From assembly GCF_900104925.1 (NCBI RefSeq), contig NZ_LT629735.1:1830291-1894290 (forward strand): DNA of 64,000 bases. Direction: 5' to 3'. Positions within the stretch are counted from its first letter, which is position 1. Every line of letters begins with the position of its first letter. The DNA comes from Opitutus sp. GAS368. Its GTDB lineage: Bacteria; Verrucomicrobiota; Verrucomicrobiia; Opitutales; Opitutaceae. Positions 1,565 through 64,000 of the stretch are shown here, one piece after another. The position numbers were made by a program, and so were the translations under genes. Under the pieces are notes generated by a model. That model was not told the DNA's origin. It made no database searches and saw only the letters and a list, made by a program, of their open reading frames with translations.

Positions 1565-1567
1565 GGA

Positions 1568-3714: not shown

Positions 3715-3736
3715 GGCGGCGGGAGTCACGGCAGTG

Positions 3737-4084: not shown

Positions 4085-4122
4085 GGGCTTTGGGGTTAAG
4101 AGACAGGGAACGTCATCAAAGC

Positions 4123-4150
4123 AATAGCGCCAGACTGGAATATCGGGACA
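4123..4150 (-). promoter_or_regulatory. Putative ECF promoter (TGTCCC-N16-GCTATT), copy 1
   Basis: On the minus strand TGTCCC (4150-4145) is followed after exactly 16 nt by GCTATT (4128-4123). Transcription would start near 4117, about 33 nt before the EF-hand ATG. The same two boxes with the same spacer recur at 8582-8609, 8624-8651 and 16913-16940. Confidence 0.65.
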
Positions 4151-4172
4151 GGTTTGCGCCCTTTTTCCGGCC

Positions 4173-4207
4173 AAAAAAAGACCCCGGCGCTACCCAGCGC
4201 CGGGGTC
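4173..4207 (-). terminator. Rho-independent terminator of the TonB receptor operon
   Basis: Perfect 12-bp stem (4180-4191 with 4196-4207) and a 4-nt loop. On the minus strand it is followed by seven T (4179-4173). It lies 29 nt past the stop of the TonB receptor gene and just upstream of the next minus-strand promoter, so it separates two operons. Confidence 0.9.
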
Positions 4208-4235
4208 AGACACCCTAACCCAAGCCGGTCCCGGC

Positions 4236-6452: not shown

Positions 6453-6509
6453 GGAGTCTGGGGTTTGATCGGTGTGGGGGTTGGGGAAGGGGTGGCGGGC
6501 GGAGCCACG

Positions 6510-7502: not shown

Positions 7503-7511
7503 GGGCGAAAA

Positions 7512-8507: not shown

Positions 8508-8581
8508 GGGCGGGCGGGGGAAACGCACCGGGCACGCGGAGCGGCCGGCAGCTGCGGGGTGAAAAGGGGGTTCAACGAGGT

Positions 8582-8609
8582 AATAGCACCGGTCGCAGGA
8601 TTTGGGACA
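8582..8609 (-). promoter_or_regulatory. Putative ECF promoter, copy 2 (isomerase/DUF1080/TonB operon)
   Basis: Minus-strand TGTCCC (8609-8604), 16-nt spacer, GCTATT (8587-8582). The predicted start near 8576 gives a leader of about 69 nt to the ATG at 8507. It lies back to back with copy 3, leaving 14 nt between the two -35-like boxes. Confidence 0.65.
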
Positions 8610-8623
8610 GGCGCGGCGCAATT

Positions 8624-8651
8624 TGTCCTAGTCGGAAGGCGTGGAGCTATT
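8624..8651 (+). promoter_or_regulatory. Putative ECF promoter, copy 3 (alginate-lyase-like gene)
   Basis: Plus-strand TGTCCT (8624-8629), 16-nt spacer, GCTATT (8646-8651). One base differs from the other copies. The predicted start near 8658 is about 35 nt before the ATG at 8693. With copy 2 it forms a divergent pair using one motif. Confidence 0.6.
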
Positions 8652-8692
8652 ACTGGGTGAACCCCGTTTCGTCTTCTTCTGCCTCTGTCCCT

Positions 8693-9859
8693 ATGCGTGC
8701 CCTCCGTTTCGCCGCGCTCGCGGCTGCCTTTCTCTCCGTCGCGTTCCCGGCGCTCGCGGCCGAACCGGCCGCCGGCTTCGTGCATCCCGGCGTCCTGGTC
8801 AACCGCGCGCAGCTCGATCTGATCAAGCAGCGCGTCGCCGCCGGCGCAGAGCCCCAGAAATCCGCTTTCGCGGCGCTGCTGGCCAGCCCCATGGCGGCGC
8901 TGGATTACACGGCAAGCCCGCGCGCGACCGTCGAGTGCGGCTCCTATTCCAAGCCCGACCTGGGCTGCAAGGACGAGCAACGCGACAGCGCCGCCGCTTA
9001 CACGCAGGCCCTGGCCTGGGCCGTTACGGGCAATGCCCGCTACGCGCACAACGCCATCCGCATCATGAACGCCTGGGCGACCACGCTCACCGGCGGCCAC
9101 ACCAACAACAACGGCCCGATCCAGGCCGCGTGGTGCGCCGAGGAATGGCCGCGCGCCGCCGAGATCATCCGCGCCACCACCGATTTCTGGCCGCCGGAGG
9201 AGATCGCGCGCTTTGCCACGATGCTGAAGACGCAATACGTGCCTTCGCTCATCAACGGCTCCGATGAAAACGGCAACAAGGAGATCTCCATGGCCGCGGC
9301 ACTGATCAATATCGGGGTGTTCACCGACGACCGCGCGCTCTACGATGCCGGCGTGAAGATGTGGCGCGGCCGCGCCCCGGCCCTGGTCTACCTCAGGTCC
9401 GACGGCGCCGCGCCCGTGCGGCCGGCCAGCGGCCAGGCGGCGATCTGGGGCAACAAGGGCAAGACGCCGCAATTCGTGGACGGCCTGCTGCAGGAGACGG
9501 CGCGCGATTCGCAGCATGCCAACATGGCCTTCGCCTCAATGGTCAACGGCGCCGAGACGGCCCGTCAGCAGGGCCTCGACCTCTACGCCGAGCAAGGGGC
9601 GCGTATCCGGGCCGCGATGGAATTCCAGGCGCAGTTCCTGAAACCCAATGCCGCGACCCCGCCGCCCAACCTCGAGTTCAACCTGCACCCGACCTGGGAG
9701 ATTGCCTACAACCATTTCCACGACCGGCTCGGGCTGGCGCTGCCGCTCATGGCCGCGGTGATCCCCACCAACCGGCCCACCGGCGTGAACCACCACATGG
9801 CGTGGGAAACGCTCACGCATGGCGGCATCGGGGCAGTCGGGCTGCCGCCACTCCGGTGA
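8693..9859 (+). CDS. Alginate lyase family (PL5-like) exported protein
   Basis: 388 residues starting MRALRFAALAAAFLSV, a signal peptide ending near PALAAE. A GTG at 8657 would put a non-signal-like extension in front and would abut the predicted transcription start, so the ATG is preferred. The body is an alpha-toroid like alginate lyases: HPGVLVNRAQLDLIKQRV, YAHNAIRIMNAWA, NGSDENGNKEISMAAAL, and HPTWEIAYNHFHDRLGL near the end. Such enzymes cleave uronic-acid polysaccharides by beta-elimination. It diverges from the isomerase operon and has the same promoter motif, so it probably supplies or trims the same substrate. Polysaccharide specificity is not known. Confidence 0.85.
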   Translation: MRALRFAALAAAFLSVAFPALAAEPAAGFVHPGVLVNRAQLDLIKQRVAAGAEPQKSAFAALLASPMAALDYTASPRATVECGSYSKPDLGCKDEQRDSAAAYTQALAWAVTGNARYAHNAIRIMNAWATTLTGGHTNNNGPIQAAWCAEEWPRAAEIIRATTDFWPPEEIARFATMLKTQYVPSLINGSDENGNKEISMAAALINIGVFTDDRALYDAGVKMWRGRAPALVYLRSDGAAPVRPASGQAAIWGNKGKTPQFVDGLLQETARDSQHANMAFASMVNGAETARQQGLDLYAEQGARIRAAMEFQAQFLKPNAATPPPNLEFNLHPTWEIAYNHFHDRLGLALPLMAAVIPTNRPTGVNHHMAWETLTHGGIGAVGLPPLR

Positions 9860-9952
9860 GCGCTTAACGGCTAAGACGTTGGTGGCTGTTGTGGGACGCG
9901 CAGACAGCCAAGATCAGGCAGTTTTAAACACAGAGTGCACGGAGACCACGGA

Positions 9953-10006
9953 GGTAGGGGCCGTTGCCCTCAACGGCTCGGGCGCTTGCCCCCAAGCGCC
10001 CCTACC
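9953..10006. repeat. REP/BIME-like inverted repeat pair (GGTAGGGGC ends)
   Basis: Begins GGTAGGGGC and ends with its reverse complement. Each half is a small palindrome (GCCGTTG/CAACGGC and GGGCGCTTG/CAAGCGCCC). Outside it, CAGAGTGCAC on the left and its near reverse complement GCGCACTCTG on the right extend the symmetry. It occupies the gap between the lyase and haem-protein genes. Confidence 0.75.
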
Positions 10007-10055
10007 GAAGATTCAACTCTGCGCACTCTGCGATCTTTGGGTTATAAAATCCGAG

Positions 10056-12569
10056 CTACGGCACGGTCTGCAGTTCTTCCTCGGACCAGGGCGCCTCGCG
10101 GTCGCCGACCGCCTTGCGGACCTCGGCGATGGTGGCGGGCGAGACCGGCGGCGCATTATGGCCCCACGACTGGCGGACGTAGGTGAGGGCGCCGGCGATG
10201 GTCTCGTCATCCAGGGCGCGCAGCGGCGGCATGGCCAGGCCCTCCTTTTCCTTCCCGTTGAGCACGATCCGGGCGAGCTGGCGTTCGTTGCCGAGCACGT
10301 ATTTCGAGTAGAGCAGCTGCGGGGCGAGGCCGGCCATGCCCTCGCCACCGGCCTGGTGGCACGCGGCGCAGATGGTGGCAAACGTGATGCGGCCCTTGTC
10401 GAAGAGAACCTTCTGTTCCGGCGTGAGCCGCGCGGCGATGTCGGCGGACTCCTTCTCCAGGCCGGGCTTGCCGGGCCATTTCAGAAAACCGGCAAGGCGG
10501 GCGGCCTGCTTGCCCTCCGGCGTGTTGCCCTGCACCGACAGCAACAGCAGCGCGCGCGGCTCGACCGGCAGGTTGCCGGCCACGAGCTTGCCCTCGGGGG
10601 TCTTCGGCAGGAAGCGCTCGAGGCCATCGAGCACGGCGGCGCGGCCCCAGTCGGGGAAACCGGTCTTTGGATCGAGGCCGGCCAGCAGCCCGGTGATGTG
10701 GGCGGTGTCGCCGGACTTGAACACCGCACCGGCGGCGAGCTTGAGGACGGGCGCGGCGCCGTCACCCTTGGGGTCGGCCAGGACCCGCGTGATGAAATCA
10801 AATTCGCGGCCGGCCAGGCCACTGACGATGGCGTCGGCGATGTAGGGCTGGCGGCCGGCGCGTTCCGCGATCCCGACCAGGGCCGCGAGAGCTTCCGGGG
10901 ACTTGGCTTCGCCGAGGGAGAGCGCCAGCTGCAGCGTCACGTTGGGCGCGAAGGCGTCCACGTCCGCCACGCGGCGGTAAAGGTCGTCGTCGCCCTTCGC
11001 GAGCAAGGGCTCGGACAGGCGGATGGCGGCGGCCACGACGCGGGCATCCGTGCTGCCGAGGCCGGCGAGGATGGTGTCGCGGTCGAGCTGACCGCTGCCG
11101 TCGAGGGTCCAGAGCGCGTGGAGGCGGGCCAGCGGCGGGCCCGAGCGGACCATCTCACGCAGCAAAGGCGCGGCGGCGGGATCGCGACGCTCGACGAGCA
11201 GGCGCTGCGCGGTGTCGCGCCACCAGCTGTTGGCGGCCCGAAGGTGGGTGACGAGCTGCGCGGAGGACTCAGTGGCGAGGTTGAACTTCACCTTCGAGCG
11301 GACCGCGGTCTCGGGCATGATGCGGTAGATGCGGCCCATGCCGATGCCGTCGGCGAGGCCGCGCTCCTCGACCTGCTTGCGCAGGAAGGTGGTCATATAG
11401 ATGCGGTGCTGGATGATGCCGCGATACATGTCCACGATGTAGAGGGCGCCGTCGGGGCCGTTGGCAGTGTTGACGGGGCGGAAACGTTCGTCAGTGGAGG
11501 TGATGAATTCGGATCCCTCGTAGGCGTTGCGGGCGGTGATGGTGCCGTCCGCCTCGGTGAGGATCATCCGCTTCACCAGGTTGCCGGCCGGCTCGACGAA
11601 GAAGGCGTTGTTGTAGAATTCCGCCGGGAAAAGTCCGCTGCGATAGACAAGGGGACCGCAGGCGGCGGTGACGGCGGTGATCTTGCCCTCGGCGTTGAGC
11701 GACTTGTAGCCGCGGTTGACGCCGGGGGTGACGCGGCCGGGCCAGATCGGAAGATCGGCGGGCGCAAGCTGGACGTTGCCGCCGGCGGCGTTGGTGAGGA
11801 AAGGATTGCGGCGCAGGTAGGCGGTCGGCACGAGATCGGCGCGCAGCGGGTCGCTGTTGCTGTTGTGGAAGATGCGGCCGGTGTCATCCTGCGAGAGGCC
11901 CCACTGGCCGCGCGCGAGCGTGGACTCGCTGGCGAATTTCCCGTTGCCCAGATAGCGGAAGCGCTGGGTGTGGTTGGCGTTGTAGATCCAGTTGTCGAGC
12001 CCCCACATCAGGCCGTTGGCGGTGTGCTCGGGGTTGCTGGTGCCGCCGTAGTCGGAAAAGACCTCGGTCTTCTCGTCGGCCACGCCGTCGCCGTTGGTGT
12101 CGCGGCAGAACCACAGGTGCGGGGGCTCGGCCACGAGCACGCCGTCGCCGACCAGCGCGACGGCGCGCGGCAGCACGAGTTTGTCGAGGAAGACCGTGCG
12201 TTTGTTGTAGCGCCCGTCGCCGTCAGTATCCTCAAGGACGGAAATGGTGCCGACTTTCTCCATTTCGCCCTTGCCGTCGGCGTTGCGCATGAAGCCGCGC
12301 ATCTCGACGACCCAGATGCGGCCGTCGGGCCCGAAGGTCATCGCGACCGGGTCGCCGACCAGCGGATCTGCCGCCGCGATCTCGACGCGGAAACCCGGGG
12401 CGACCTTCAGGGTCTTGAGCGCCTCTTCGGCGACCAGGACGGGCGCGGGTGGCGTCTTGATGTGCCCGGGCACGGCCTGCTGGGCCTCGCCAGGTTTGTC
12501 GCCGTGCTGGGCGAGCAGCGGGGCGGTGGTCAGGAGCAGGGCGAGCGGCAGCAAGCGGTGGAACAGCAT
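10056..12569 (-). CDS. PVC-type haem-binding CxxCH protein (sorbosone-dehydrogenase-like propeller plus cytochrome c)
   Basis: 837 residues with a signal peptide (MLFHRLLPLALLLTT). The N-terminal half (about 50-420) is a membrane-bound-dehydrogenase/glucose-sorbosone type beta-propeller with FGPDGRIWVVEMRGF, DGDGRYNKRTVF and GPDGALYIVDMYRG. A HEAT-like helical part (about 450-700) follows. The C-terminal cytochrome c domain carries the haem site CAACH (in ATICAACHQAGGEG) and an axial Met region. This architecture is nearly restricted to the PVC superphylum and is thought to oxidise sugars or alcohols in the periplasm. It follows the cupin gene by 42 nt and the MFS gene beyond it, probably one operon. 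Substrate unknown. Confidence 0.9.
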   Translation of the reverse strand: MLFHRLLPLALLLTTAPLLAQHGDKPGEAQQAVPGHIKTPPAPVLVAEEALKTLKVAPGFRVEIAAADPLVGDPVAMTFGPDGRIWVVEMRGFMRNADGKGEMEKVGTISVLEDTDGDGRYNKRTVFLDKLVLPRAVALVGDGVLVAEPPHLWFCRDTNGDGVADEKTEVFSDYGGTSNPEHTANGLMWGLDNWIYNANHTQRFRYLGNGKFASESTLARGQWGLSQDDTGRIFHNSNSDPLRADLVPTAYLRRNPFLTNAAGGNVQLAPADLPIWPGRVTPGVNRGYKSLNAEGKITAVTAACGPLVYRSGLFPAEFYNNAFFVEPAGNLVKRMILTEADGTITARNAYEGSEFITSTDERFRPVNTANGPDGALYIVDMYRGIIQHRIYMTTFLRKQVEERGLADGIGMGRIYRIMPETAVRSKVKFNLATESSAQLVTHLRAANSWWRDTAQRLLVERRDPAAAPLLREMVRSGPPLARLHALWTLDGSGQLDRDTILAGLGSTDARVVAAAIRLSEPLLAKGDDDLYRRVADVDAFAPNVTLQLALSLGEAKSPEALAALVGIAERAGRQPYIADAIVSGLAGREFDFITRVLADPKGDGAAPVLKLAAGAVFKSGDTAHITGLLAGLDPKTGFPDWGRAAVLDGLERFLPKTPEGKLVAGNLPVEPRALLLLSVQGNTPEGKQAARLAGFLKWPGKPGLEKESADIAARLTPEQKVLFDKGRITFATICAACHQAGGEGMAGLAPQLLYSKYVLGNERQLARIVLNGKEKEGLAMPPLRALDDETIAGALTYVRQSWGHNAPPVSPATIAEVRKAVGDREAPWSEEELQTVP

Positions 12570-12611
12570 GGGGCGGGAGGGGAGGTTGAAAGCGGAAAGG
12601 TGCGGGCCGGC

Positions 12612-12956
12612 TCAGTCAAACCACTCGTCGTGCGGATCGAAGGCGGGGACGGGAATGTTGACGAACTTGATCCGGCCGATGATGCGGTGGCGGCAGCCGG
12701 GCTTGATCAGGACGGTGCTCATCGGCTTCACGGGGTGCAGCAGGCCGTCGAGCTCCATGTGACCCGTGCCCTCGAGGATGAGGTAAATCTCGGTGAGCTT
12801 CTTGTGGTAGTGCGTCTGCGTGTCGACCCTGGCGTCCACGAGATGGATGGTGGCCACGGGGTTGTCGGGCGTGACGAAAGCGCGGCGCGACTGGCCGCAC
12901 GGACAGGGCACCGGCGAAATCTCGTCGAGGTGGGCGATGGCGTAGTTCGGGCTCAT
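12612..12956 (-). CDS. Small cupin domain protein
   Basis: 114 residues, a single cupin. The metal motif 1 appears as THYHKKLTEIYLILEG (His, His, Glu) and motif 2 as PGCRHRIIG with the last His. The N-terminus has CPCGQSRRAF, a Cys pair not typical of the family. No signal peptide, so it is cytoplasmic. It lies between the MFS transporter and the haem protein genes in the same direction. Small cupins often isomerise or bind sugars or act as dioxygenases; here it probably handles an intermediate of the sugar pathway. Confidence 0.85.
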   Translation of the reverse strand: MSPNYAIAHLDEISPVPCPCGQSRRAFVTPDNPVATIHLVDARVDTQTHYHKKLTEIYLILEGTGHMELDGLLHPVKPMSTVLIKPGCRHRIIGRIKFVNIPVPAFDPHDEWFD

Positions 12957-13027
12957 GACCGAAAAAGACTAAGGCATCGCGGCGGCGGCTGCCAGCCCGG
13001 TGTTTGTCCGGGTCGGGGCCCGGCAAA

Positions 13028-14368
13028 TCACTCGTCGGGCAAGGGCTGGTCCTTGGTCTCGGGCAGGAAGGGCAGGACGGCGATGCCGACGAGCAGCACG
13101 AGGCTGACCCACATGCCGGCAGTGCGGAAGCCCTCGATGTCGCCGCCGAGGCGCTTGGTGATCTGGCTCATGGTGAAGGGCGCGGTCGCCGCGATGATGC
13201 GGCCGACGTTGTAGCAGAAGCTCGTGCCGGTGCTGCGCAGGCTGGTGGGGAAAAGCTCCGGCAGGTAGACGGCGTAGACGCCGAAGACCGAGAGCTGGCC
13301 GAAGCCCATGATCGGGAGCATCCAGTAAAGATCACCGAGCGACCGCATGTAACGGAAGACCAGCAGCGTGGAAATGAACGAGAGAAACAGCGCGAGCCCG
13401 AAGGCGATGCGCCGGCCCTTCACCTGCGCGAACTTGGCCAGCGAGAGCATGCCGACAAAGCCGCCGAGGTTCTGGAGCAGCAGGCCGGCGGAGCGCCAGA
13501 AGGCTTTCTTGTCCGCGATGGCGGCCGCGTCCAGGCCCTGCCCGGCGAAGGCTTTCTCCACGATGTCGCCGACGATCTTCGGATGAAAATTGCCAATGCC
13601 CCAGAGCCCGATGATGCCGGCGCTGCAGGCGACGAGGCCGAGCCAGGCGTGCTTGCGCCACTTCGGGTGGCCGAGCAGCGCGCCGTAGGAACCGAACTTG
13701 ATGCCGGCTTTTTCGCCCGCGGCCTTGGCGTCGACCCACCTCGGCGGCTCCTTCAGCCGGCGCATGACAAACACGCAGAGGAATGCCGGCAGCGCGCCGA
13801 CGAGGAACAGCACCTGCCAGTGGGCCAGGCCGAAGGGCAGCAGGTGCCGCGCGGCCAGCACGCCGAGGCCCATGCCCGCGAGGCCCGCGAGCAGGTTGCC
13901 CCAGGTGGAGATGGATTGCAGCAGGCCGAGCGCCGGGGCCCGCGCGCGGTCCGGCACCGAGTCGGCCACGAGTGCGACGGCCAGGCCAAACACGCCGCCG
14001 ATGCCGAGGCCGGTGATGAAGCGGTAGGCGCAGAAATCAGCCATGCCGGTCGAGAACGAGCTCAGGCCCGTGCTCACCGAATAAAGCACGATGGTCCACG
14101 TGAGCACCTTCGCCCGGCCGTAGCGGTCGCCCAGCGCGCCGAAGATCAGGCCGCCGATCGCCCAGCCGACCAGGAATACCGAGGTGGTGTAGGGGCCGTA
14201 TTCCGTCGCGAGCGTCTGGTCCGGGATCAGCGCTTCCATGGCGCCGTCGCGCGCCAGGTTGAAGATCTGCTGGTCGAGGCAGTCGAAGAGCCACGCCAGC
14301 GAGGCGACGGTGAAGACGAACCAGTGCTCGCGGGTGAAGGTGCGCCACCAGGGCGCGGGGGAATTCAT
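13028..14368 (-). CDS. MFS transporter, sugar/acid permease-like
   Basis: 446 residues from ATG at 14368, with an alternative ATG at 14383. Twelve hydrophobic segments are apparent. MFS signatures include FGALGDRYGRAKVLTWTI after helix 2 and ending PFLPETKDQPLPDE, as in the metabolite:H+ symporter/sugar porter group. An in-frame extension further upstream runs into repeat sequence and was not used. It is first in the direction MFS, cupin, haem protein. It likely brings the processed sugar or sugar acid across the inner membrane, complementing the TonB receptor in the outer membrane. Confidence 0.9.
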   Translation of the reverse strand: MNSPAPWWRTFTREHWFVFTVASLAWLFDCLDQQIFNLARDGAMEALIPDQTLATEYGPYTTSVFLVGWAIGGLIFGALGDRYGRAKVLTWTIVLYSVSTGLSSFSTGMADFCAYRFITGLGIGGVFGLAVALVADSVPDRARAPALGLLQSISTWGNLLAGLAGMGLGVLAARHLLPFGLAHWQVLFLVGALPAFLCVFVMRRLKEPPRWVDAKAAGEKAGIKFGSYGALLGHPKWRKHAWLGLVACSAGIIGLWGIGNFHPKIVGDIVEKAFAGQGLDAAAIADKKAFWRSAGLLLQNLGGFVGMLSLAKFAQVKGRRIAFGLALFLSFISTLLVFRYMRSLGDLYWMLPIMGFGQLSVFGVYAVYLPELFPTSLRSTGTSFCYNVGRIIAATAPFTMSQITKRLGGDIEGFRTAGMWVSLVLLVGIAVLPFLPETKDQPLPDE

Positions 14369-14405
14369 GGAGTGAACGGGCATTCTTCGGGGCGCCTGCG
14401 AGGCT

Positions 14406-14493
14406 CCAAGCTCCAACATCCAAATCCCAAAGAGCATTCAGGATCAAAGGCTGGGAATTGAAGATTCTCTGGAGCTTGGAGGTTGGAGCTTGG
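14406..14493. repeat. Inverted repeat with 18-nt arms upstream of the MFS gene
   Basis: Arms 14406-14423 and 14476-14493 match at 17 of 18 positions when one is reverse-complemented (CCAAGCTCCAAC core). The right arm is embedded in a quasi-repeated TTGGAG stretch. It differs from the GTAG-type repeats elsewhere. Confidence 0.6.
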
Positions 14494-14554
14494 GGTTTCC
14501 GCCGATGGGTGCGAGGCGGGTCGTGGTAGACTCGCTAACGAAAGGGCCTGTCGT

Positions 14555-15598
14555 TCAGGCGAGGGTCACGGGTCTGCCGGTACCGGCGGATTGGTAGATC
14601 GCATTGACGAACGCGACGGCCTTGCGGCCCTCGCGGCCGTCGAGGGCGGGGGCGCGGCCGGCGTGGAGCGCATCGACCAGGTCCTGCAGCTGGCGGCGGT
14701 GGCCCTCGGTGTTGATGGCCTTGGGGTCGCTGGCGCCCGAGCCGAGGGCGTTGGCCGCGCCGCCGGTGCGGATGGCGTCGTCCTCCGGGCGGGCCTCGCG
14801 GAATTCCCATTTGGCAAGACGGTCGTCCTCGAGCGAGATGGAGCCGTGCTCGCCGCAGAGCTCGATGCGCCGCGACCAACCCGGCCAGAGCGCGGTGCTG
14901 GCCTCGAAGGCGCCGAGCGCGCCGCCGGGGAACTTCAGCGTGGCGGCCGCGGTGTCCTCGGCCTCGATGCCGGTGTGGACGCGCCGCGTCGACCAGGCGA
15001 ACACCTCGGCCGGCAGGCCGGCGAACCACTGGAGCAAATCGAGGCCGTGGATGGCCTGGTTGATGACCGCGCCGCCGCCATCGAGCGCGAGCGAACCGCG
15101 GTAGCCGGTGTAATACTGCGCAGTGCGGTGCCACTTCACGTAGGCGCTGGCCAGCACCATCCGGCCGAGGCGGCCGGCGTCGAGCGCGGCTTTCATGGTG
15201 CGGGCACCGTCACCAAAGCGGCCCTGGAAGATCGGAGCGACGCGCACGCCGGCTTGGTCCGCAGCGGCGAGGATCTGGTCAGCGCGCGCCGTCGTGACCT
15301 CGATGGGTTTCTCAATGACGACATGCTTGCCGGCGCGGATGGCGGCCAGGGCCGGCTCGAGGTGAGCGCCGCTGGGCGTGGTGATGCAGACGATGTGGAG
15401 GTCCGGCCGGGCCAGCAGCGCCGCCAGGTCGGCCGTGGCGAGCACGCCGTGCTGGTCGGCCACTTTCCGGGCGTTTTCGAGCGAGCGGCTGGCGACGCCG
15501 ACGAGCCGGGCCCCGGTCAGTTGCGAAATGGCCTGCGCATGAAAACCCGCAATCGTGCCGGCGCCGACGAGACCAAAGCCAAGGGGGGCGGAGGACAT
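14555..15598 (-). CDS. Gfo/Idh/MocA family oxidoreductase
   Basis: 347 residues. The Rossmann start is GFGLVGAGTIAGFHAQAI. The conserved EKP triad is in HVVIEKPIEV, and the C-terminal substrate domain has YTGYRGSLALDGGGAVINQAIHGLDLLQWF, including the His used in catalysis. No signal peptide is seen. It begins 6 nt after the redoxin gene stop, so the two are co-transcribed. These NAD(P) enzymes oxidise or reduce sugar hydroxyls, or transfer hydride between sugars in 3-keto pathways. Exact sugar unknown. Confidence 0.92.
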   Translation of the reverse strand: MSSAPLGFGLVGAGTIAGFHAQAISQLTGARLVGVASRSLENARKVADQHGVLATADLAALLARPDLHIVCITTPSGAHLEPALAAIRAGKHVVIEKPIEVTTARADQILAAADQAGVRVAPIFQGRFGDGARTMKAALDAGRLGRMVLASAYVKWHRTAQYYTGYRGSLALDGGGAVINQAIHGLDLLQWFAGLPAEVFAWSTRRVHTGIEAEDTAAATLKFPGGALGAFEASTALWPGWSRRIELCGEHGSISLEDDRLAKWEFREARPEDDAIRTGGAANALGSGASDPKAINTEGHRRQLQDLVDALHAGRAPALDGREGRKAVAFVNAIYQSAGTGRPVTLA

Positions 15599-15604
15599 GC
15601 GGTC

Positions 15605-16852
15605 TTATTTATAGTAGGGTCCCAGTTCATTAATCAAGGCGGCGCGCAGTTCGGCGAAGTCCAGCGGTCCGTTATGGCGGTAAATGATTTTCCCGCCCGG
15701 GGCGATGACCACGGTGTGCGGCAGCGGTCCGGGCCACTGCGGATCGAGCGCGGCGGCCAACGCACCGGTGCTGGCTCCGGTGTAGAGAAAATTGACGGCG
15801 TCCCGGCCCTCGGCCTTCAGCAGGCGCTTGAGCCGGCCCGGCGGGGCGGCGTGCTGCCGCTCGAGGAATTTCTTCGCCCCCGCCTGCTGCTTCGGATCAT
15901 CCAGGCTGAGCGTGACCAGTTCGAAATCGCGGTTGCCGAGCTGGCGGGCGAGCGCAACCAGGCCGGGGAACTCCGCGACACACGGCGTGCACCAGGTGGC
16001 CCAGACATTGATCAGGCGGAGGCGGTTGGAGTCGTTTTTCGCCAGCGCCGCCACCCCCGCGGCGTCGAGCAGCGCGAGATCGACGGGCTCCTGCTGCCAG
16101 CGCGCGTCAGCCTGGGCGTTTTCCGCCTTGTTGGACTTCCACTTGGTGGAGCAGCCGACCACGAGGGTTTTTTCGACAGGCACCGGTTTGTCCGCCAGCA
16201 GCGCGACGACGGCGTTGCGCGCGTCGAAGGAAGTGACCGTGGCCGGATTGGCGAAGCGCGAGTCGTCAACGCGACCGACGTAGCGGAGCCGGCGCGCCCG
16301 GTCGAAGAGAAAGACGTGCGGGGTGGCGAGGCAGCCGTAGTTTTTCGCCGTCTGCTGCGTGTCGCCGTCGTAAAGGTAAGGGAAGGGGAAACCCTGCTCC
16401 TTGGCGTAGAGAATCATCTCGGGGTAGCTGTCGTTGTATTTGCTGTAGCCGAGCTCGGTGATGGCGACGCCCTGGGGGCTGTTGGGATTGATGGCGACGA
16501 CGGCGAGGCCCCGGCCTTGGAATTCACGGGCGAGCGGCAGCAGGCGGGTCTCGGCGGCGTGCGAGTAGGGGCAGTGGTTCGACAGGAACACGACCATCAG
16601 GACGGGGGCGGCCTTGAAATCGGCCAGGGAGTAGGTTTGGCCGTCCACACCCTTGAGAGAGAAATCCAGCGCGGCGTCGCCGATGGCGAGTTGGCGGGCA
16701 TCCGCCGGCAGCTCGCTCGCGAGATCCACGCGGCCGGAGGCGTCGCGCTTTTTCTTGGCCTGGGCAAATGCGGCGGGCGTGCCCGCGAGCAGGACGGCCG
16801 TGCCGAGCAAGGCGGCCAGCGGGAGGGGAAAACGACGGGGTGGACGGATCAT
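15605..16852 (-). CDS. Double-domain redoxin/thioredoxin-like exported protein
   Basis: 415 residues from ATG at 16852 (MIRPPRRFPLPLAALL, signal peptide to about TPAAFA). An in-frame GTG at 16873 is possible. Domain 1 (about 55-215) is AhpC/TSA-redoxin-like with VVFLSNHCPYSHAAET, so its active site is CPYS rather than CxxC. Domain 2 (about 260-415) is TlpA/ResA-like with VWATWCTPCVAEFP. The tandem of a one-Cys redoxin and a classic thioredoxin on one chain is unusual. It is periplasmic by prediction and heads an operon with the Gfo/Idh/MocA gene under promoter motif copy 4. A role in redox maintenance of exported sugar enzymes is speculation. Confidence 0.85.
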   Translation of the reverse strand: MIRPPRRFPLPLAALLGTAVLLAGTPAAFAQAKKKRDASGRVDLASELPADARQLAIGDAALDFSLKGVDGQTYSLADFKAAPVLMVVFLSNHCPYSHAAETRLLPLAREFQGRGLAVVAINPNSPQGVAITELGYSKYNDSYPEMILYAKEQGFPFPYLYDGDTQQTAKNYGCLATPHVFLFDRARRLRYVGRVDDSRFANPATVTSFDARNAVVALLADKPVPVEKTLVVGCSTKWKSNKAENAQADARWQQEPVDLALLDAAGVAALAKNDSNRLRLINVWATWCTPCVAEFPGLVALARQLGNRDFELVTLSLDDPKQQAGAKKFLERQHAAPPGRLKRLLKAEGRDAVNFLYTGASTGALAAALDPQWPGPLPHTVVIAPGGKIIYRHNGPLDFAELRAALINELGPYYK

Positions 16853-58547: not shown

Positions 58548-58757
58548 TTAGTCTTTGCGGGGCGGGGCGTCGCCCTGCGTGAAGATGGCGCCGGAGGACA
58601 CCGGGGCCGTCCGCCAGTTGAAGGCGATGGTGACCGACCGGAAGAGGAAGGTCACCGCCATGGCCAGCAGCGCCGCCTGGGAAGCGGTGATGGCGAGGTA
58701 GACACCGGCGCAGATGAAGGTGACGGCGCCAACTGGGTTTGCTGCCAAAACATGCAC
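58548..58757 (-). pseudogene. Remnant of a TRIC/YadS-type channel gene (C-terminal part only)
   Basis: The last ~60 codons of a UPF0126/TRIC protein: VTFICAGVYLAITASQAALL then FRSVTIAFNWRTAPV. They match the C-terminus of the complete gene at 59062 (FRALTIAFNWRTTSV). Both GGGxxRD motifs of the family are missing; similarity stops near 58735, where base composition changes. The remnant has the high-GC look of the chromosome, while the complete copy is AT-richer. Best reading: the resident gene was cut by insertion of the island. Confidence 0.75.
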
Positions 58758-59061: not shown

Positions 59062-59712
59062 TTATTTCTCGGGTTCCACTAGCGGAGCGACCGAGGTTGT
59101 GCGCCAGTTGAAGGCAATAGTCAGCGCACGGAAAGTGAACGTGATCGCAATCGCCCAAAGCGCAGCCTTAGTCGCCGGCATATTCAGATAAATGGTCAGA
59201 AACACGAACGCGACCGAACCGCCTAGTGCGGTCAAAACGTAAAACTGGCCCGGCTTGAATACTAGGGGTTCCTCACGGGTGATGATATCGCGGAGCAGGC
59301 CGCCGCCGGCGGCATTGATGACGCCAACCAGAATGGCGGCCGGAACGGCAAGATCGTAGGCCAACGCCTTTTGCGTGCCGAAGGCCGCATAGGCGCCAAG
59401 GCCCAAGGCATCGAGCACAGCAATGAGTCGGTGCAGATGCTTTACTCGACCTCCGAAAAGGGCGCCAAAGATGGTAGCCCCGACAACGACATGAATGTAG
59501 CGCGGATCGGCGAGGAGTGGAGTTGGTCCGGTTCCGGTGATAAAAACACCATCACGGATCAGTCCTCCGCCAATACCAGAAGCCAGCGCCAGGAAGAAGA
59601 CGCCGACGATGTCGTAACCTCGCTTGATCGCAGCCAGCGCCCCAGTGAGCGCAAAAGCGAACGTTGCGCACAGGTCGAAGACGGCCGGTAGATGAAATTC
59701 ACTCGCGGGCAT
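59062..59712 (-). CDS. TRIC/YadS (UPF0126) family membrane channel-like protein
   Basis: 216 residues from ATG at 59712 (a start eight codons upstream is possible). Seven membrane segments, with the internal duplication shown by GIGGGLIRDGVFI and AAGGGLLRDIITRE, the GGGxxRD motifs of bacterial TRIC-like channels. Relatives form trimeric cation channels or transport small metabolites. It is an AT-richer paralogue of the remnant just left of it, same strand. It diverges from the caspase-like gene with an ATTGTT...AACAAT element between. Its relation to the island's function is open: cargo, or a replacement of the disrupted gene. Confidence 0.85.
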   Translation of the reverse strand: MPASEFHLPAVFDLCATFAFALTGALAAIKRGYDIVGVFFLALASGIGGGLIRDGVFITGTGPTPLLADPRYIHVVVGATIFGALFGGRVKHLHRLIAVLDALGLGAYAAFGTQKALAYDLAVPAAILVGVINAAGGGLLRDIITREEPLVFKPGQFYVLTALGGSVAFVFLTIYLNMPATKAALWAIAITFTFRALTIAFNWRTTSVAPLVEPEK

Positions 59713-59729
59713 TGTTCCTAGATAACAAT
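59711..59729. promoter_or_regulatory. Inverted repeat ATTGTT-N7-AACAAT between TRIC and caspase-like genes
   Basis: Perfect 6-bp arms 7 nt apart, overlapping the first bases of the TRIC coding region and 49 nt before the caspase-like ATG. A candidate operator for the adjacent XRE protein. Confidence 0.35.
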
Positions 59730-59777
59730 CATCCAATGCTCGACGACCACGAACTAATCAACTCATACCAATAGGGC

Positions 59778-60617
59778 ATGGCCACTCAATACGGATTTGA
59801 TACCATACACGTTATTGAATCGTTGAAGGAGAGCGATGGCGAGCCAGGCCGGCGGCTAACCGAAAACTGGAATCGCGATACACCTGAAGGGATACAGATG
59901 GTTTATCATTTTGTTCTCTCTCGCGATGACCTGTTTCGTGAGATGGACGCAATCTACGCCGGGGTGTCGGCAGCTGTTCCTGTGCTACATTTCGAGTTGC
60001 ACGGGAATGATGAGGGATTCGGTCTCAGAGATGACAGCTTCGTTTCATGGGAAGAGTTCGGCCCGCACTTGCTGCGGTTTAATTTGGCGACCCGGTTTAA
60101 CCTGTTGGTTACTTTTTCATGCTGTTTTGGGATTCATCAAATTGTAGCAATGTCTGCTTTTAAACCGGCGCCATTTGTCGGGGTCGTCGGATGTGACCGC
60201 GAAGCGGAGACGCCGGAACTGCTCAATGGATTCGAGGCGTTTTACCGAACATTGGTTGCTACCGACGATGGCCATAAGGCGCTAGCGGCCTTGCAGGGCA
60301 AAATCTTCAGCGGTGCGCAATTTGCATTTTTCACTGTCGAAAAAGCATTTCGCGGTGCATACAAAAATGTGGTTCGCGAAAATCGCGCACGCGACCCTTT
60401 CAAGCTCAGAAGAAAACAGGTTAGAAAAGAGTTGGCCCAAAAAGCCAGAGCAGCAGGCCGAGCTAATCCGAAAGTCACTGATTGGCAGATTAAGGCTGCA
60501 CTGGCTGAAACGGAGGGTCGCACACTGCGGCAATTCTACGAAGCGTTTTTTGCCCTCGATCAAATATCTGAGAACGAAAGACGATTTCCCTACGATCTAT
60601 TGATTGCTGGGCTGTAG
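59778..60617 (+). CDS. Caspase/CHAT-like (clan CD) protein, putative effector
   Basis: 279 residues, AT-rich. The core looks like a clan CD peptidase: a strand-His motif LHFELHGNDEGF (His75), FVSWEEFGPHLL, and a strand-Cys motif LLVTFSCCFG (Cys115 or Cys116), then PFVGVVGCDREAETPELLNG and FEAFYRTL. This order (H-G, then C-x-G, then a VVG strand and an F..FY helix) is that of CHAT/caspase-like domains. The C-terminal ~90 residues are basic and helical (FKLRRKQVRKELAQKARAAG), perhaps a nucleic-acid or partner-binding tail. Such proteases are frequent effectors in bacterial defence. No profile was run, so the family call is tentative; a non-peptidase relative is possible. Convergent with the modification operon. 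Confidence 0.55.
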   Translation: MATQYGFDTIHVIESLKESDGEPGRRLTENWNRDTPEGIQMVYHFVLSRDDLFREMDAIYAGVSAAVPVLHFELHGNDEGFGLRDDSFVSWEEFGPHLLRFNLATRFNLLVTFSCCFGIHQIVAMSAFKPAPFVGVVGCDREAETPELLNGFEAFYRTLVATDDGHKALAALQGKIFSGAQFAFFTVEKAFRGAYKNVVRENRARDPFKLRRKQVRKELAQKARAAGRANPKVTDWQIKAALAETEGRTLRQFYEAFFALDQISENERRFPYDLLIAGL

Positions 60618-60648: not shown

Positions 60649-61659
60649 CTAGGGCGATCCCACCCTAACAAACCATCGGGCCCAGAGATCCTTTAGTGCT
60701 GGATTGCTGACGCTTTCAACGACGGCGGGAATATCGTTGATCGCTCGACGGCGACGGAGGCCTTCGGCCAACAGAATGCGGACAATGTTAGCCCAGCCGA
60801 GCGGAAGAGCTGTCTGCGCCAGCATCTCCATGAGCTGCTTGCTGGAATGCGTTTCATCAGTGATCGCCTCGGCGAGACGCATTACCGATGGCCAGATGCG
60901 GTCGAATTCCGCCTCGGGAAGGCTGAGAGTATCTGTGTTCATATGCACAGTAGCTTGGACTGGAGCCACTGGGCTGCTTTGAAGGCTGTCCTCGTAGAAG
61001 TGGAGGCTATCGCTCCAGTGCGTATAGGTGCCCAGCCCAACGCCGAGCCACCCGGCAATCACTTCTTGGAGGCATGTGAACTGCACGATATTGTGCGGAG
61101 TCCCGCGGTAAGCGTCATTGCTGCGCATGACTTGTGTCCAATCAAGGCGTCCCCCGCGCACCTTGAGCATCGAAACCAGGTTGCAAGGGATGTCTGCCGA
61201 AACCGGTTGTCCGTCAATGTGCGGGAGATCATCCTCGCTGCTCCAAATCTGCAGCACGACTTGACGGCTCTGGGGATTACCGCGCAAGGCACTGGTCGCC
61301 CGTCTCAATTGATCGAGACCGAATCGTTTTCGTAGCCGCTCACCGTATGCGCCGTGATAAACCGGTGCATCTCCAGCATAGTGAGTTAGCTTTCGGTTGA
61401 AATAAACCAGGAAGCGGGCGTCGTTGCGACCTTCGAGTATCCAGATCACTTCCGCGAGGGCAAAGGCGACGTTTAGGGCATCTCTTCGTGAGACGATCCA
61501 TCGCTGGCGAGGATCCTTAATCTGCAAGGCAACGTGCAGCAATTCACGCGTCTTCCCCACCCGGCTTTCTTGGACGGTGGTGTCGGGACCTTGTAGGAGG
61601 GCGAGGGCCGCTTCGCGCCAGGCCTCGTCCGCCGTGTTGCCTTCAAAGGAGTGAATCAT
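60649..61659 (-). CDS. Thymidylate synthase-like enzyme (possible dUMP/dCMP hydroxymethylase)
   Basis: 336 residues from ATG at 61659; upstream extension was rejected because it lies inside the previous gene. ThyA-fold residues: Glu70 in FALAEVIWILEG, catalytic Cys159 in DIPCNLVSM, the phosphate/base site RSNDAYRGTPHNI (Arg179, Ser180, Asp182, Asn190) and HFY (His220, Tyr222). However the IWDEW segment of ordinary ThyA is replaced (KLTHYAGDAPVYHGAYG), and Cys-His is Cys-Asn. Loss of that Trp is associated with hydroxymethyl rather than methyl transfer in relatives. The C-terminal ~100 residues are an extra helical domain. Last gene of the island operon, overlapping the HhH gene by 17 nt. Confidence 0.8.
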   Translation of the reverse strand: MIHSFEGNTADEAWREAALALLQGPDTTVQESRVGKTRELLHVALQIKDPRQRWIVSRRDALNVAFALAEVIWILEGRNDARFLVYFNRKLTHYAGDAPVYHGAYGERLRKRFGLDQLRRATSALRGNPQSRQVVLQIWSSEDDLPHIDGQPVSADIPCNLVSMLKVRGGRLDWTQVMRSNDAYRGTPHNIVQFTCLQEVIAGWLGVGLGTYTHWSDSLHFYEDSLQSSPVAPVQATVHMNTDTLSLPEAEFDRIWPSVMRLAEAITDETHSSKQLMEMLAQTALPLGWANIVRILLAEGLRRRRAINDIPAVVESVSNPALKDLWARWFVRVGSP

Positions 61660-62698
61660 GCGGCACCATGGGTCGGAGCGTGATGCGCTCATTGATCTTC
61701 CACTTCGGCGGGAACCAGTAGGAAATGGGGGCACTATGTGGCGAGAAGCGCTGCTTGATGCGTGTGCGCCCACCACTGCCGAATTCGGGATGCGCCACGC
61801 GTGAATACTTATCTACCTCGCAAAAGAGGTTCTGGCAGTCGATGAGCTGCAGTTTTCGACCCCACAGAGATTGGAATTTCAAGCCGCGCTGGGTGAATTC
61901 TGCCTCTTGGCGCTCAGCGACAATCTTGATGAGGTCTACTTCCGTCAGTCCGCCGAAGTCCGCAAAGCATTTAGCGATGCCATTAAGTGCGCCCGGGCCG
62001 GGCACAACGAAGTGCATCTCATCGAAATTCAGCAACGGGCTATAGTTGAGGTCTGTGACGTATTGATAGGCCAGGAAGTCGCCGATGGTTGGGTAGCCCA
62101 GAAGCAGGGAGAACGCTTCTTGCATGGAGCCGGCCTCAATGAGTTTTTGAGGAAGATGGTCAGTGATCATCCGGGCGAGCAGATCAAGGTGCATACGGTG
62201 CTTCCGCCCAGTCTTGTTCAGTTTTCCACCGGAGGGCATGATATAGGCCGGAGAATAAATCCGCTTCCCTGCCGCCATGGCGCGCGTCAGCACTTGATCG
62301 TAGGCGCGAACGAAGCCCGGCGCATAACGAACTTCGCCAAATTCGCGCTCCAATAGTTCCCAAGTGTCGATCCGGTTGAAGATCTTGAAAAGCAGGATGC
62401 GGAAACAAAGCTGAATGGGATCTTGGTCTCCGCGGTAAATCACCGAACGGATGAGATATTGGCTGACTCGGTCAGAGGCCCGGTAGGCGTTTGTGAATTT
62501 GTGCGCCTGGAGCACGGGGTCGTCCGTCCAAGGTGCAGGCTGGCCGGCGATTCGCGCGAAGAAAATCCGTTGCCGCTCGGTGCTGAATTTCCAATAAGTA
62601 TCGTAAACGACGGTCGGTTTGGCCGGCGAAAGGTGAACCAAAATGTTCGGTCGTGGTGGCGTGAAAGAGGCGAGGTTTCTTCGAGCAGTTGTAGGCAT
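61643..62698 (-). CDS. HhH-fold DNA base hypermodification protein (5-hmdU DNA kinase helical / thymine-pyrophosphorylase type)
   Basis: 351 residues from ATG at 62698, which overlaps the kinase stop (TAATG). The middle is a strongly patterned helical region: YWKFSTERQRIFFARI, PWTDDPVLQAHKFTNAYRAS, DRVSQYLIRSVIY and FRILLFKIFNRIDTWELLE. TDLNYSPLLNFDE and VVPGPGALNGIAKCF follow; the latter resembles the helix-hairpin-helix of DNA glycosylases. From memory this fits the families named 5-hmdU DNA kinase helical domain and alpha-glutamyl/putrescinyl-thymine pyrophosphorylase, which act on phosphorylated 5-hydroxymethyl-dU in phage DNA. No P-loop is in this chain; the kinase is the preceding gene. 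Enzyme activity is inferred. Confidence 0.72.
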   Translation of the reverse strand: MPTTARRNLASFTPPRPNILVHLSPAKPTVVYDTYWKFSTERQRIFFARIAGQPAPWTDDPVLQAHKFTNAYRASDRVSQYLIRSVIYRGDQDPIQLCFRILLFKIFNRIDTWELLEREFGEVRYAPGFVRAYDQVLTRAMAAGKRIYSPAYIMPSGGKLNKTGRKHRMHLDLLARMITDHLPQKLIEAGSMQEAFSLLLGYPTIGDFLAYQYVTDLNYSPLLNFDEMHFVVPGPGALNGIAKCFADFGGLTEVDLIKIVAERQEAEFTQRGLKFQSLWGRKLQLIDCQNLFCEVDKYSRVAHPEFGSGGRTRIKQRFSPHSAPISYWFPPKWKINERITLRPMVPHDSLL

Positions 62699-63318
62699 TA
62701 GAGTCGCGGGAGCACACCGAGCGTTGTGAGGCGAGCCAAGCAGGATATTACGCGATCCTCGACCGATTGTGTGGGCCCCAGTTGGTCGATAGGGGCATGT
62801 GCCCCCTGAACCTCGACCAATTGGCGATAAGCAGCTTGGACGGCTTCCCATTGCGGGGTGAGCGGATCGTCGAATGGGGCCGGGCGTAGGGTGCAAAAGA
62901 TCACCGCAGGCTTAATAGGTTGCCACGCGTCGCACTCTATTTTGACGAGTTGATTAAGCAAGGTGGTGGAGAGACCCTGGGCGTGGCCATGGGCCCACAT
63001 CGACCACCAATACCGATCAAGCACAATCCAGCGGCCGGAAGCCAAGGCCGGCTTTATGCGGGACTCTATTGCATCGAGATGTGCTGCTAAATGGAGAACT
63101 TGGCGAGTTGCCGCTGGCAGCGCCGTGATCCCAAAACGGTCGGGTTTATGCTCTAGATCATAGACCACGGCTCCGATGGATGCGGTGCCGCGTCCTGGGA
63201 ATGACATGTATTCGGCGTGAACCCCCCGCTGGGCAAGGGCTGTAGGCAATACTTGCGCGAGCGTGGTTTTACCCGTGTTCTCGGGCCCCTCGACGACAAT
63301 GAGATGACCGAGGTTCAT
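62698..63318 (-). CDS. Thymidylate kinase-like P-loop nucleotide kinase
   Basis: 206 residues. Walker A GPENTGKT (11-18). FPGRGTASIG (about 40-49) equals the FPxRxTxIG of eukaryotic-type thymidylate kinases. Asp101-Arg102-Tyr103 in WIVLDRYWWSMWAHG matches the DR(Y/H) motif. A LID-like Arg cluster is weak (TLRPAPFDDP). It could phosphorylate dTMP or 5-hydroxymethyl-dUMP; alternatively it may phosphorylate the base in DNA, as 5-hmdU DNA kinases do. Starts 1 nt after the dCTP-deaminase-like stop and overlaps the next gene by one base, so the operon is tightly coupled. Confidence 0.82.
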   Translation of the reverse strand: MNLGHLIVVEGPENTGKTTLAQVLPTALAQRGVHAEYMSFPGRGTASIGAVVYDLEHKPDRFGITALPAATRQVLHLAAHLDAIESRIKPALASGRWIVLDRYWWSMWAHGHAQGLSTTLLNQLVKIECDAWQPIKPAVIFCTLRPAPFDDPLTPQWEAVQAAYRQLVEVQGAHAPIDQLGPTQSVEDRVISCLARLTTLGVLPRL

Positions 63319-63319
63319 G

Positions 63320-64000
63320 TTACGGTTTCTTGTTGGAAGGAGCCGTGGCAGGCGCTTCGTTACTCGAGTAGTGGCCGGTGTTATTCTGGATGATTAGCCC
63401 CACAATGCCGAGAATCAGGACAACGAGGCAACTCCAGAGCAGCTTGGCGTGGAACTTGGAGGTGGATTCCAGCGTGCGAATGCGCTCGGTGAGCATAGCG
63501 GGTGAAGCGATGTCCCCATCAATCTCCATGACGGCCTGTGGCTGGATTCCCCGCTGGCCGGAGTAACCGCCGGTGTAGAGATCACGCGTAGGTGCGGTCA
63601 GGTCACTGAACCAGATCAGAAAAACCGGATCTCCGCAGCCGATCCGAACCGAGCGACAACCTGCATTGTAGACTGAAAATACGAGTTGCCCGGTGAACCC
63701 CGGATCGACGTGAAACCCGGATACGTTGACAAGGCCCTTAAGCTTAATCTTGGCCTTTATGGAGATGAACGCGAGGGCGCTGTCGGGCACTTTAATGACT
63801 TCGGCCGTGTGCAGCAGGGCGAATTGGCCGGGTGGAATTTCGACATGATCGCCCGGCCAGAGAGAGACCTTTTTCTTGATCGGCGACGAGGTGACGTAGG
63901 CCTCGTTGCCCAAACTCATCTCATAGGCCGCGTGCTTGATGCGCCGAGCGTCATAAGGGGTAACCAAGTTACCCGCCGGGATACGCTGCCGAAGGGTTTC
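63320..64000 (-). CDS. dCTP deaminase/dUTPase-fold protein with C-terminal membrane helix (5' end outside window)
   Basis: The frame is open to the right edge and already matches the Dcd N-terminus there (LRQRIPAGNLVTPYDARRIK before AAYEMSLG), so a TTG at 63967 is not taken as the start. The fold is recognisable: PGQFALLHTAEVIKVPD, FISIKAKIKLKGLVNVSGFH, VDPGFTGQLVFSVYN and CGDPVFLIWF. The catalytic Glu of Dcd in the LE(L/I) strand after DPGF is replaced (QLVFSV), so deamination is doubtful; it may bind nucleotides. A membrane helix near the C-terminus (LLWSCLVVLILGIVGLII) and a short polar tail follow. First visible gene of the operon; more may lie upstream. Confidence 0.78.
   Translation of the reverse strand, partial: ETLRQRIPAGNLVTPYDARRIKHAAYEMSLGNEAYVTSSPIKKKVSLWPGDHVEIPPGQFALLHTAEVIKVPDSALAFISIKAKIKLKGLVNVSGFHVDPGFTGQLVFSVYNAGCRSVRIGCGDPVFLIWFSDLTAPTRDLYTGGYSGQRGIQPQAVMEIDGDIASPAMLTERIRTLESTSKFHAKLLWSCLVVLILGIVGLIIQNNTGHYSSNEAPATAPSNKKP

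Follow-up and report, generated by a model that had tools for sequence, protein, structure and literature searches.

The window analysed here, a stretch of 64,000 nucleotides from the 4.15-Mb, single-contig genome of Opitutus sp. GAS368, ends inside an operon of eight genes on the minus strand, in the order ACP-like (acyl carrier protein-like), XRE, ImmA/IrrE, TS1, Dcd-like, TMK-like, HMUDK_hel and TS2 (ThyA-like). The four genes in the window form the tail of this operon, and the remainder extends 2.4 kb beyond the window (Table 1). The preliminary description of this DNA had proposed a set of four tightly coupled minus-strand genes, and the open-reading-frame calls bear this out at 60649-64018, with the spacings it gave of 1 nt (63319), a TAATG overlap (62696-62700) and a 17-nt overlap, stop codon counted (61643-61659). 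The genes are real, but the operon is larger than the four described, as TS1, IrrE, XRE and the ACP-like gene lie upstream of the window, where the genes overlap or are separated by gaps of at most 10 nt. Pfam matches of all four window genes exceed the curated cut-offs, confirming the families to which the four proteins had been assigned and placing HMUDK_hel in no unrelated family. Since other genomes have these genes side by side as well, the grouping is not due to chance, and the protein families and gene order, as read from sequence, are well supported. A search for an operator or promoter upstream of the ACP gene returned short inverted repeats only and no sigma-70 match.

Table 1. Features of the operon and its surroundings. 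Coordinates are window positions, except those prefixed L002, which equal the window position minus 57709.
Feature	Position	Strand	Match or remark
TS2, ThyA-fold, predicted MilA/SPO1-type pyrimidine nucleotide 5-hydroxymethylase	60649-61659	-	PF00303 Thymidylat_synt 4.2e-19; phrog_5131 4.1e-60
HMUDK_hel, helical domain of 5-hmdU DNA kinase, HhH-type fold	61643-62698	-	PF18723 2.2e-110
TMK-like P-loop nucleotide kinase, predicted HMUDK_hel partner	62698-63318	-	PF02223 Thymidylate_kin 2.1e-13
Dcd-like domain with C-terminal hydrophobic segment	63320-64018 (L002:5611-6309); start 18 nt outside window	-	PF22769 DCD 8.9e-14
TS1, divergent thymidylate-synthase-fold protein	L002:6317-7150	same strand as operon	
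ImmA/IrrE	L002:7131-8003	same strand as operon	PF06114 1.2e-11
XRE regulator	L002:8014-8343	same strand as operon	HTH_31 2.1e-14
ACP-like protein	L002:8336-8656	same strand as operon	Ser motif; profile scores sub-threshold
Left element end, short imperfect core	58726-58733	.	core repeated at right end, L002:16134-16141
Complete island-borne copy of interrupted family	59062-59736	-	PF03458 1.3e-32; second own-genome match
Convergent island gene without assigned family	59778-60617	+	31 nt from operon end

Relatives of the operon were surveyed in a genome collection, and the locus counts given here refer to the best 80 of 481 relatives, HMUDK being present in all 80. Along with it, TS1 was found in 74 loci, IrrE in 71, XRE in 70 and ACP in 66, followed by MazG (46), TMK (45), TS2 (32), AcpS (27) and Dcd (26). 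In 68 loci the sequence reaches 4 kb or more upstream of HMUDK; 59 of these carry ACP, XRE, IrrE and TS1, all 59 in the order and strand ACP-XRE-IrrE-TS1-HMUDK, while the remaining nine miss one or more of these genes and four of them miss all four. The preliminary description had tied its reading to homologues of the kinase, ThyA-like and Dcd-like genes being found with HMUDK_hel in other genomes, and such homologues do occur, all three as separate best matches in 5 of the 80 loci and singly at the frequencies given above. TS2 goes with TMK, which is present in 31 of the 32 TS2 loci (Fisher p 3e-10, a descriptive value, as the loci are related to each other), and MazG-MazG_C goes mostly with the absence of TMK (29 of 35 loci without TMK against 17 of 45 with it), indicating that the module has two forms, one with kinase and TS2, to which the window copy belongs, and one with MazG, intermediates also occurring. 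Three of the four loci that miss all four genes (L026, L029 and L045) have a reduced TMK-HMUDK-TS2 form, two of them with Dcd, and TIR and Nmad2 clusters lie near.

The association also held when the search was not seeded on HMUDK: TS1 was found in 3 of 288 genomes of the phylum, this one included, each time less than 1.5 kb from HMUDK_hel. Module-type HMUDK was found in four of the 288, one of them without TS1. Among 72,556 plasmid records, TS1 was present in seven, all of them among the 22 with HMUDK_hel, and the other 15 were without TS1 at E 1e-5. By record titles, relatives are found in cyanobacteria, verrucomicrobia, planctomycetes, acidobacteria, chloroflexi, proteobacteria, rubrobacteria and others.

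The operon sits on a serine-recombinase element of about 15.1 kb inserted in a membrane-protein gene of the Pfam Gly_transporter family, presumably TRIC/UPF0126, with the first part of the interrupted gene at L002:16058-16627 and its last part near window 58548-58733. A same-genus genome has this gene whole (95% identity up to residue 167), and its DNA matches the left flank up to L002:1024 and the right flank from L002:16131, which gives the size of the element. HMUDK_hel was absent from all three same-genus genomes in the sample. Further upstream, the plus strand carries a TrwB/HerA-type ATPase and the serine recombinase (PF00239, 9.2e-32). With a recombinase, ends that can be placed and an interrupted gene, the island setting suggested earlier is supported. 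The full Gly_transporter-family copy on the island possibly compensates for the broken gene. The G+C content is mostly 0.50-0.64 inside the element (L002 ~1000-16200) and 0.66 in parts of the flanks, the lower value being expected of acquired DNA, and a search of both stretches, L002 and L003, found no tRNA genes.

The closest solved structure to TS2 is the CMP 5-hydroxymethylase MilA of mildiomycin biosynthesis (E 2.4e-28, residues 34-334), ahead of the best ThyA (4e-11), and TS2 scores below the cut-off of all eight NCBIfam ThyA models listed (best 71.7 vs 174.55 bits). Among specifically named phage proteins, the best E-values were those of Bacillus phage deoxyuridylate hydroxymethyltransferases (Goe9, 9e-34), followed by matches in Klebsiella phage May and Salmonella phage allotria, both of which we take to be ViI-like. 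The catalytic Cys, His and Tyr are kept in all 30 rows of the TS2 alignment. In the account given with MilA, an Arg and a Ser mark the deoxyribose enzymes and an Asp marks the cytosine enzymes (PMC5175136); TS2 has the Arg and the Ser in 30/30 rows and an Asn in place of the Asp in 29/30, a deoxyuridylate-type set that is unlike MilA. Based on these relatives and diagnostic residues, TS2 is predicted to be a dUMP 5-hydroxymethylase that converts dUMP to 5-hydroxymethyl-dUMP (5-hmdUMP), and the capacity for 5-hydroxymethyl-deoxyuridine (5-hmdU) nucleotides that had been proposed for the operon appears plausible.

HMUDK_hel, with a predicted model of pLDDT 89, had as its best viral-model match the 5-hmdU DNA kinase of phage SP10 (637 aa, E 9e-15), followed by HMUDK_hel proteins, thymine pyrophosphorylases (9.5e-10 and 6.2e-5) and, more weakly, an amino acid:DNA transferase (5e-3). 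The seven listed PDB matches with a probability of at least 0.09 were the human queuine salvage enzyme DUF2419, which we take to belong to the HhH DNA glycosylase superfamily, and HhH DNA glycosylases, at E 0.37-8.7. Two features of the sequence, a PGPG stretch of HhH type and the LIDCQN motif with its invariant Asp (alignment position 288, one lower in the protein), presumably resemble the HhH-GPD layout. The HhH-type fold suggested earlier is consistent with this weak likeness to glycosylases and with the significant matches to phage kinase and pyrophosphorylase models, which point to HMUDK_hel having the fold of the phage 5-hmdU DNA kinase. The TMK-like kinase keeps its Walker A motif, GPENTGKTT, and matches the PADLOC candidate model PDC-M51B (3.3e-9); TMK is fused ahead of HMUDK_hel in 30 loci, a separate gene in 15 and missing in 35, and both domains of one such fusion (L032) were confirmed by Pfam. 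One relative (G215:C16:1894-2846) has HMUDK_hel split over two reading frames, where the module may be decaying.

The Dcd fold of the Dcd-like protein is clear from the PF22769 profile and the alignment, and a hydrophobic segment beyond residue 150 was present in 24/24 rows (19-residue mean 1.45-3.22). The membrane-anchored deaminase-fold protein of the preliminary description therefore stands as regards fold and tail, but no deaminase activity is implied. At the position of the catalytic Glu, which we take to be E138 of the E. coli dCTP deaminase, 12 rows have Ser, as does the window protein, 12 have Ala and none has Glu, and the protein was rejected as an active deaminase for this reason. 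Lys92, Gly95, Asn98, Ser100, Asp105 and Asn118 are invariant in 24/24 rows. Since the Glu is lost and the hydrophobic tail kept in every row, this protein seems likelier to be a membrane receptor than a deaminase.

TS1 has no Pfam match and no match at E 1e-5 among 50,697 phage records, and its sequence similarity to known proteins is weak (MilA E 0.033; hhalign 7%), with TIGR03283 matching below its cut-off at 2.4e-5 for the island's own copy and 2.4e-11 for that of L015. A model of the L033 member (pLDDT 94.8) gave Foldseek values of 8.5e-10 to ThyA and 1e-9 to MilA at a TM of ~0.6, so that TS1 is predicted by fold to belong to the thymidylate-synthase superfamily. A Cys is invariant in 39/39 rows; by our reading, the base-specificity position is taken by an invariant Asn and the phosphate/sugar-holding Arg and His/Tyr appear to be lost, and the substrate is probably a uracil compound held differently. 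The ACP-like protein has a Ser in an (F)-D/N-S type motif that is invariant in 23/23 rows, the island's own copy included, two of its plasmid relatives are named acyl carrier protein by NCBI, and a phosphopantetheinyl transferase, AcpS (PF01648, 2e-16 in L017), stands beside the module in 27 of the 80 loci, though not in this island. The carrier profile scores were sub-threshold (PF00550 0.026 and NCBIfam 0.0087 for L015, none for the island's own copy), and so the protein is likely, but unproven, to be a carrier. The XRE/IrrE pair suggests a switch rather than constant marking.

Genes surrounding the module were clustered by BLAST within 3 kb in the 80 loci, giving lower bounds, and 305 neighbouring open reading frames within 2 kb were called with a simple caller of our own. 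Ten of more than 900 aa were dropped, and 287 of the remaining 295 were scanned in two sets (142+145), eight of 100-138 aa being omitted; the Pfam families listed are the 25 commonest per set. The clusters comprised radical SAM in at least eight loci, ThsB-type TIR in at least seven, DUF1643 in at least five, SLOG-TIR and an AbiEii-like cluster, its name inferred from the Pfam totals, in at least four each, and papain in at least three. Pfam totals over the 287 frames were 11 for radical SAM, 10 for ThsB_TIR, six for Nmad2 and five each for AbiEii and DUF1643. Neighbours also matched the PADLOC models for ThsB and AbiE, and two members each matched pAgo, Druantia-, BREX- and Dpd-type models, some of them possibly the same helicases. 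On plasmids, the neighbours include a patatin labelled as a CBASS phospholipase, SIR2, and a caspase with pYEATS. These cluster and Pfam surveys showed no universal effector partner.

Hypermodified thymine is familiar from phages, and here the enzymes for it form a bacterial, mobile and probably regulated operon. The phage pathway (M6, ViI, phiW-14; SP10) appears, by sequence comparison, to share with it the dUMP hydroxymethylase and the helical domain of the 5-hmdU DNA kinase; the route proposed for phages M6, ViI and phiW-14 has 5-hmdU built into DNA before this kinase phosphorylates it (PMC6449724). Unlike the phage pathway, the operon is bacterial, lies on a mobile island and includes regulators and a carrier-like protein, TS1 is absent from phage records at E 1e-5, and no side-group transferase or pyrophosphorylase was found among the island proteins scanned or the neighbour families listed. 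Also unlike Thoeris and CBASS, no signal synthase with a matched effector domain was found in the island proteins scanned. Defence dCTP deaminases exist as known systems and have the Dcd fold in common with the protein found here, in which the catalytic Glu is absent and a hydrophobic tail present. A deoxynucleotide-signal defence, which we take to be Clover, can serve as an analogue. It is so by description, as immunity acting via the nucleotide pool (PMC12265719).

The nearest precedent is the DefensePredictor report of 2026, whose newly validated E. coli anti-phage domains include a 5-hydroxymethyluracil kinase and a thymidylate synthase, with no mechanism given, and which names aGPT-Pplase, MazG, MazG-C, dUTPase and a nucleotide-modification associated domain in predicted systems (PMC13092281). 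The operon shares domain classes with its E. coli system or systems (5-hydroxymethyluracil kinase, thymidylate synthase, dNMP kinase, NMAD), theirs being validated against phage, and the three reduced loci, with TIR and Nmad2, hold the domain abbreviations grouped in the legend of its Fig. 3, a comparison by description only (PMC13092281). It differs in that ACP, ImmA and hypermodif- are absent from the main text of that report (PMC13092281). Searches with distant HMUDK DNA, an indirect homology test, found no E. coli homologue of that system. The broad idea of defence is therefore not unprecedented, and the earlier claim that such a chromosomal set is not described holds only in part, given the kinase and synthase domains already validated (PMC13092281). 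No published description of a module with ACP, XRE/IrrE and TS1 was found in the literature searched, although Burroughs 2015 and Iyer 2013 may already cover part of it. The operon thus widens a class of defence that was recognised only very recently, and the searches found no counterpart for two of its parts, the carrier-like protein together with TS1 and the catalytically dead membrane protein of Dcd fold.

Given these features, we tentatively favour the reading that the operon is a mobile, probably self-regulated conflict module, most likely anti-phage, that may make and use a thymidine analogue derived from 5-hmdU, although this full form of it is possible rather than probable. The defence role by itself is probable, supported by the mobile element, by some neighbours matching defence or conflict families and by the 5-hmdU-kinase and thymidylate-synthase domains reported as validated in E. 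coli; we infer the products, the trigger and the target, as well as what ACP, TS1 and the Dcd-like protein do. In this scheme, the XRE/IrrE pair would repress the operon until the cell is infected or takes in foreign DNA. After derepression, TS2 would make 5-hmdUMP, which the TMK-like kinase or the host Tmk would raise to the triphosphate, and this would enter new DNA, much of which would belong to the phage during infection. TMK and HMUDK_hel would then flip the hmdU base in DNA and phosphorylate it. Phosphorylated hmU in a template is reported to lower transcription by bacterial RNA polymerase in vitro, and the authors of that study suggested a possible anti-phage role (PMC6457204); DNA marked in this way would therefore be blocked. 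The Dcd-like membrane protein may bind the modified nucleotide and then report it or injure the membrane, and TS1 with ACP may make or carry a further group. If the operon provides immunity, phage-like base chemistry would be turned on phage, and nucleotide-based defence would gain a carrier-like protein as well as a Dcd-fold membrane protein that is catalytically dead. The unexplained 5-hmdU-kinase finding from the 2026 E. coli screen may gain context from the module, and the small size of the operon allows cloning and testing.

Several results weigh against this reading. TMK is missing from 35 of the 80 loci and TS2 from 48, so that the 5-hmdU scheme cannot serve the whole family, and it gives ACP and TS1 no role. 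As a product of TS2, a hydroxymethyl group is not separable from a methyl group by sequence. The HMUDK_hel model had no significant match in the PDB. When the fused kinase-helical protein was used as the query, none of 500 phage records was covered to 80% and the matches listed were to the helical part only, so the kinase half is not established as a phage kinase. Among the four window proteins, PADLOC gave matches of the TMK type only, having models neither for TS2 nor for HMUDK_hel or the Dcd-like protein. The counts of defence-family neighbours stand without a control set of open reading frames, and no universal effector was found, TIR, SLOG-TIR or papain clusters lying within 3 kb in at least 10 of the 80 loci.

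The alternative that survives best, though we consider it somewhat unlikely, is nucleotide-signal immunity, in which a diffusible modified thymidine nucleotide, perhaps loaded by ACP, would act on a receptor (Dcd-like, Nmad2/TIR, SLOG-TIR, papain or patatin) and cause abortive infection. The Dcd-like protein keeps its six invariant residues in every row yet has lost the Glu and carries the hydrophobic tail, Nmad2 and ThsB TIR clusters occur in the same loci (at least seven of 80), SLOG-TIR and papain clusters occur at the counts given above, and on a Gloeothece plasmid a patatin gene overlaps HMUDK_hel. However, the Dcd-like gene is present in just 26 of the 80 loci and effector clusters in at least 10, and DNA is the substrate described for the phage relatives of HMUDK_hel (PMC6449724). 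The Nmad2 and ThsB-like TIR clusters share seven loci (L026, L029, L045, L046, L087, L093 and L105) and look as if they form one effector pair; by the Pfam totals, a few more TIR genes lie elsewhere than in these seven.

Self-marking, by which part of the thymine in host or element DNA would be replaced for protection or as a mark of self, as in phages M6, ViI and phiW-14, is unlikely. The enzyme classes of the phage pathway are present, and neighbours match DNA methylase (2/145) and Dpd-type models (2/142), but no restriction partner, transferase or pyrophosphorylase is among the neighbour families listed, and the switch suggested by XRE/IrrE would not suit constant marking.

Two further proposals, each of which we regard as improbable, would give the carrier a central place. 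In the first, a carrier-dependent immune chemistry, TS1 would join a one-carbon unit on uracil to a group carried by the phosphopantetheine arm of ACP. The HMUDK module would further phosphorylate the resulting new thymidine-derived molecule, which the dead Dcd-fold membrane receptor would then sense. The second is biosynthesis of a small molecule, an ACP-dependent nucleoside antimetabolite like mildiomycin or the products of prokaryotic viperins, which make chain-terminating nucleotides; it is an equally doubtful fit. It would be consistent with MilA being the closest solved relative of TS2, with the invariant Ser of the ACP-like protein (23/23) and AcpS in 27 of the 80 loci, with a radical SAM cluster after HMUDK_hel in at least eight of 80 loci (11/287 neighbouring frames), and with seven of 145 neighbours matching the PADLOC viperin model. 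Against this, the viperin matches are weak (best 1.5e-14), the L096 protein is named a general radical SAM/SPASM protein by Pfam and NCBIfam, and no adenylation, ketosynthase, export or resistance family is among the neighbour families listed. The radical SAM cluster lies directly after HMUDK_hel in L061, L068, L070, L074, L090, L096, L099 and L105.

Ordinary thymidylate supply by genes that the element acquired was rejected as very improbable, and the operon is poorly explained by ordinary thymidylate metabolism: the families are of ThyA, Tmk and Dcd type and the island holds the genome's sole PF00303 match (TS2) and sole DCD match (the Dcd-like protein), but the genome has its own Tmk (E 3.0e-49, profile search) and a match of ThyX type that exceeds the cut-off (E 2.4e-7), the Dcd-like active site is lost, TS2 is nearer to hydroxymethylases and below all listed ThyA cut-offs, and the usual partners HMUDK_hel, TS1, ACP, XRE and IrrE do not fit dTTP supply. 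The ThyX-type frame (G000:C1:2302948-2304189) encodes 533 aa with two Thy1 matches, one above and one below the cut-off.

Among other neighbours of the module, a 727-aa protein in L087 (L087:10580-12760) combines a calcineurin-type phosphoesterase (3.3e-8) with a sub-threshold PF00303 match (1.9e-4), and L079 has, in the same place, a large open reading frame with a weak TS1 match. In five cyanobacterial loci (L039, L059, L062, L065 and L078), DUF1643 adjoins AcpS on the same strand beside a MazG-form module. On the island itself, the product of the convergent gene at 59778-60617 had no Pfam match of note, no NCBIfam match and a best PDB E-value of 0.44; a CHAT/caspase-like reading of it, made by eye from motifs, was supported by no profile and stands as a guess. 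Directly upstream of the operon, on the same strand, lies a pair of genes encoding a DUF4325 STAS-like protein and an HATPase (L002:8862-10147).

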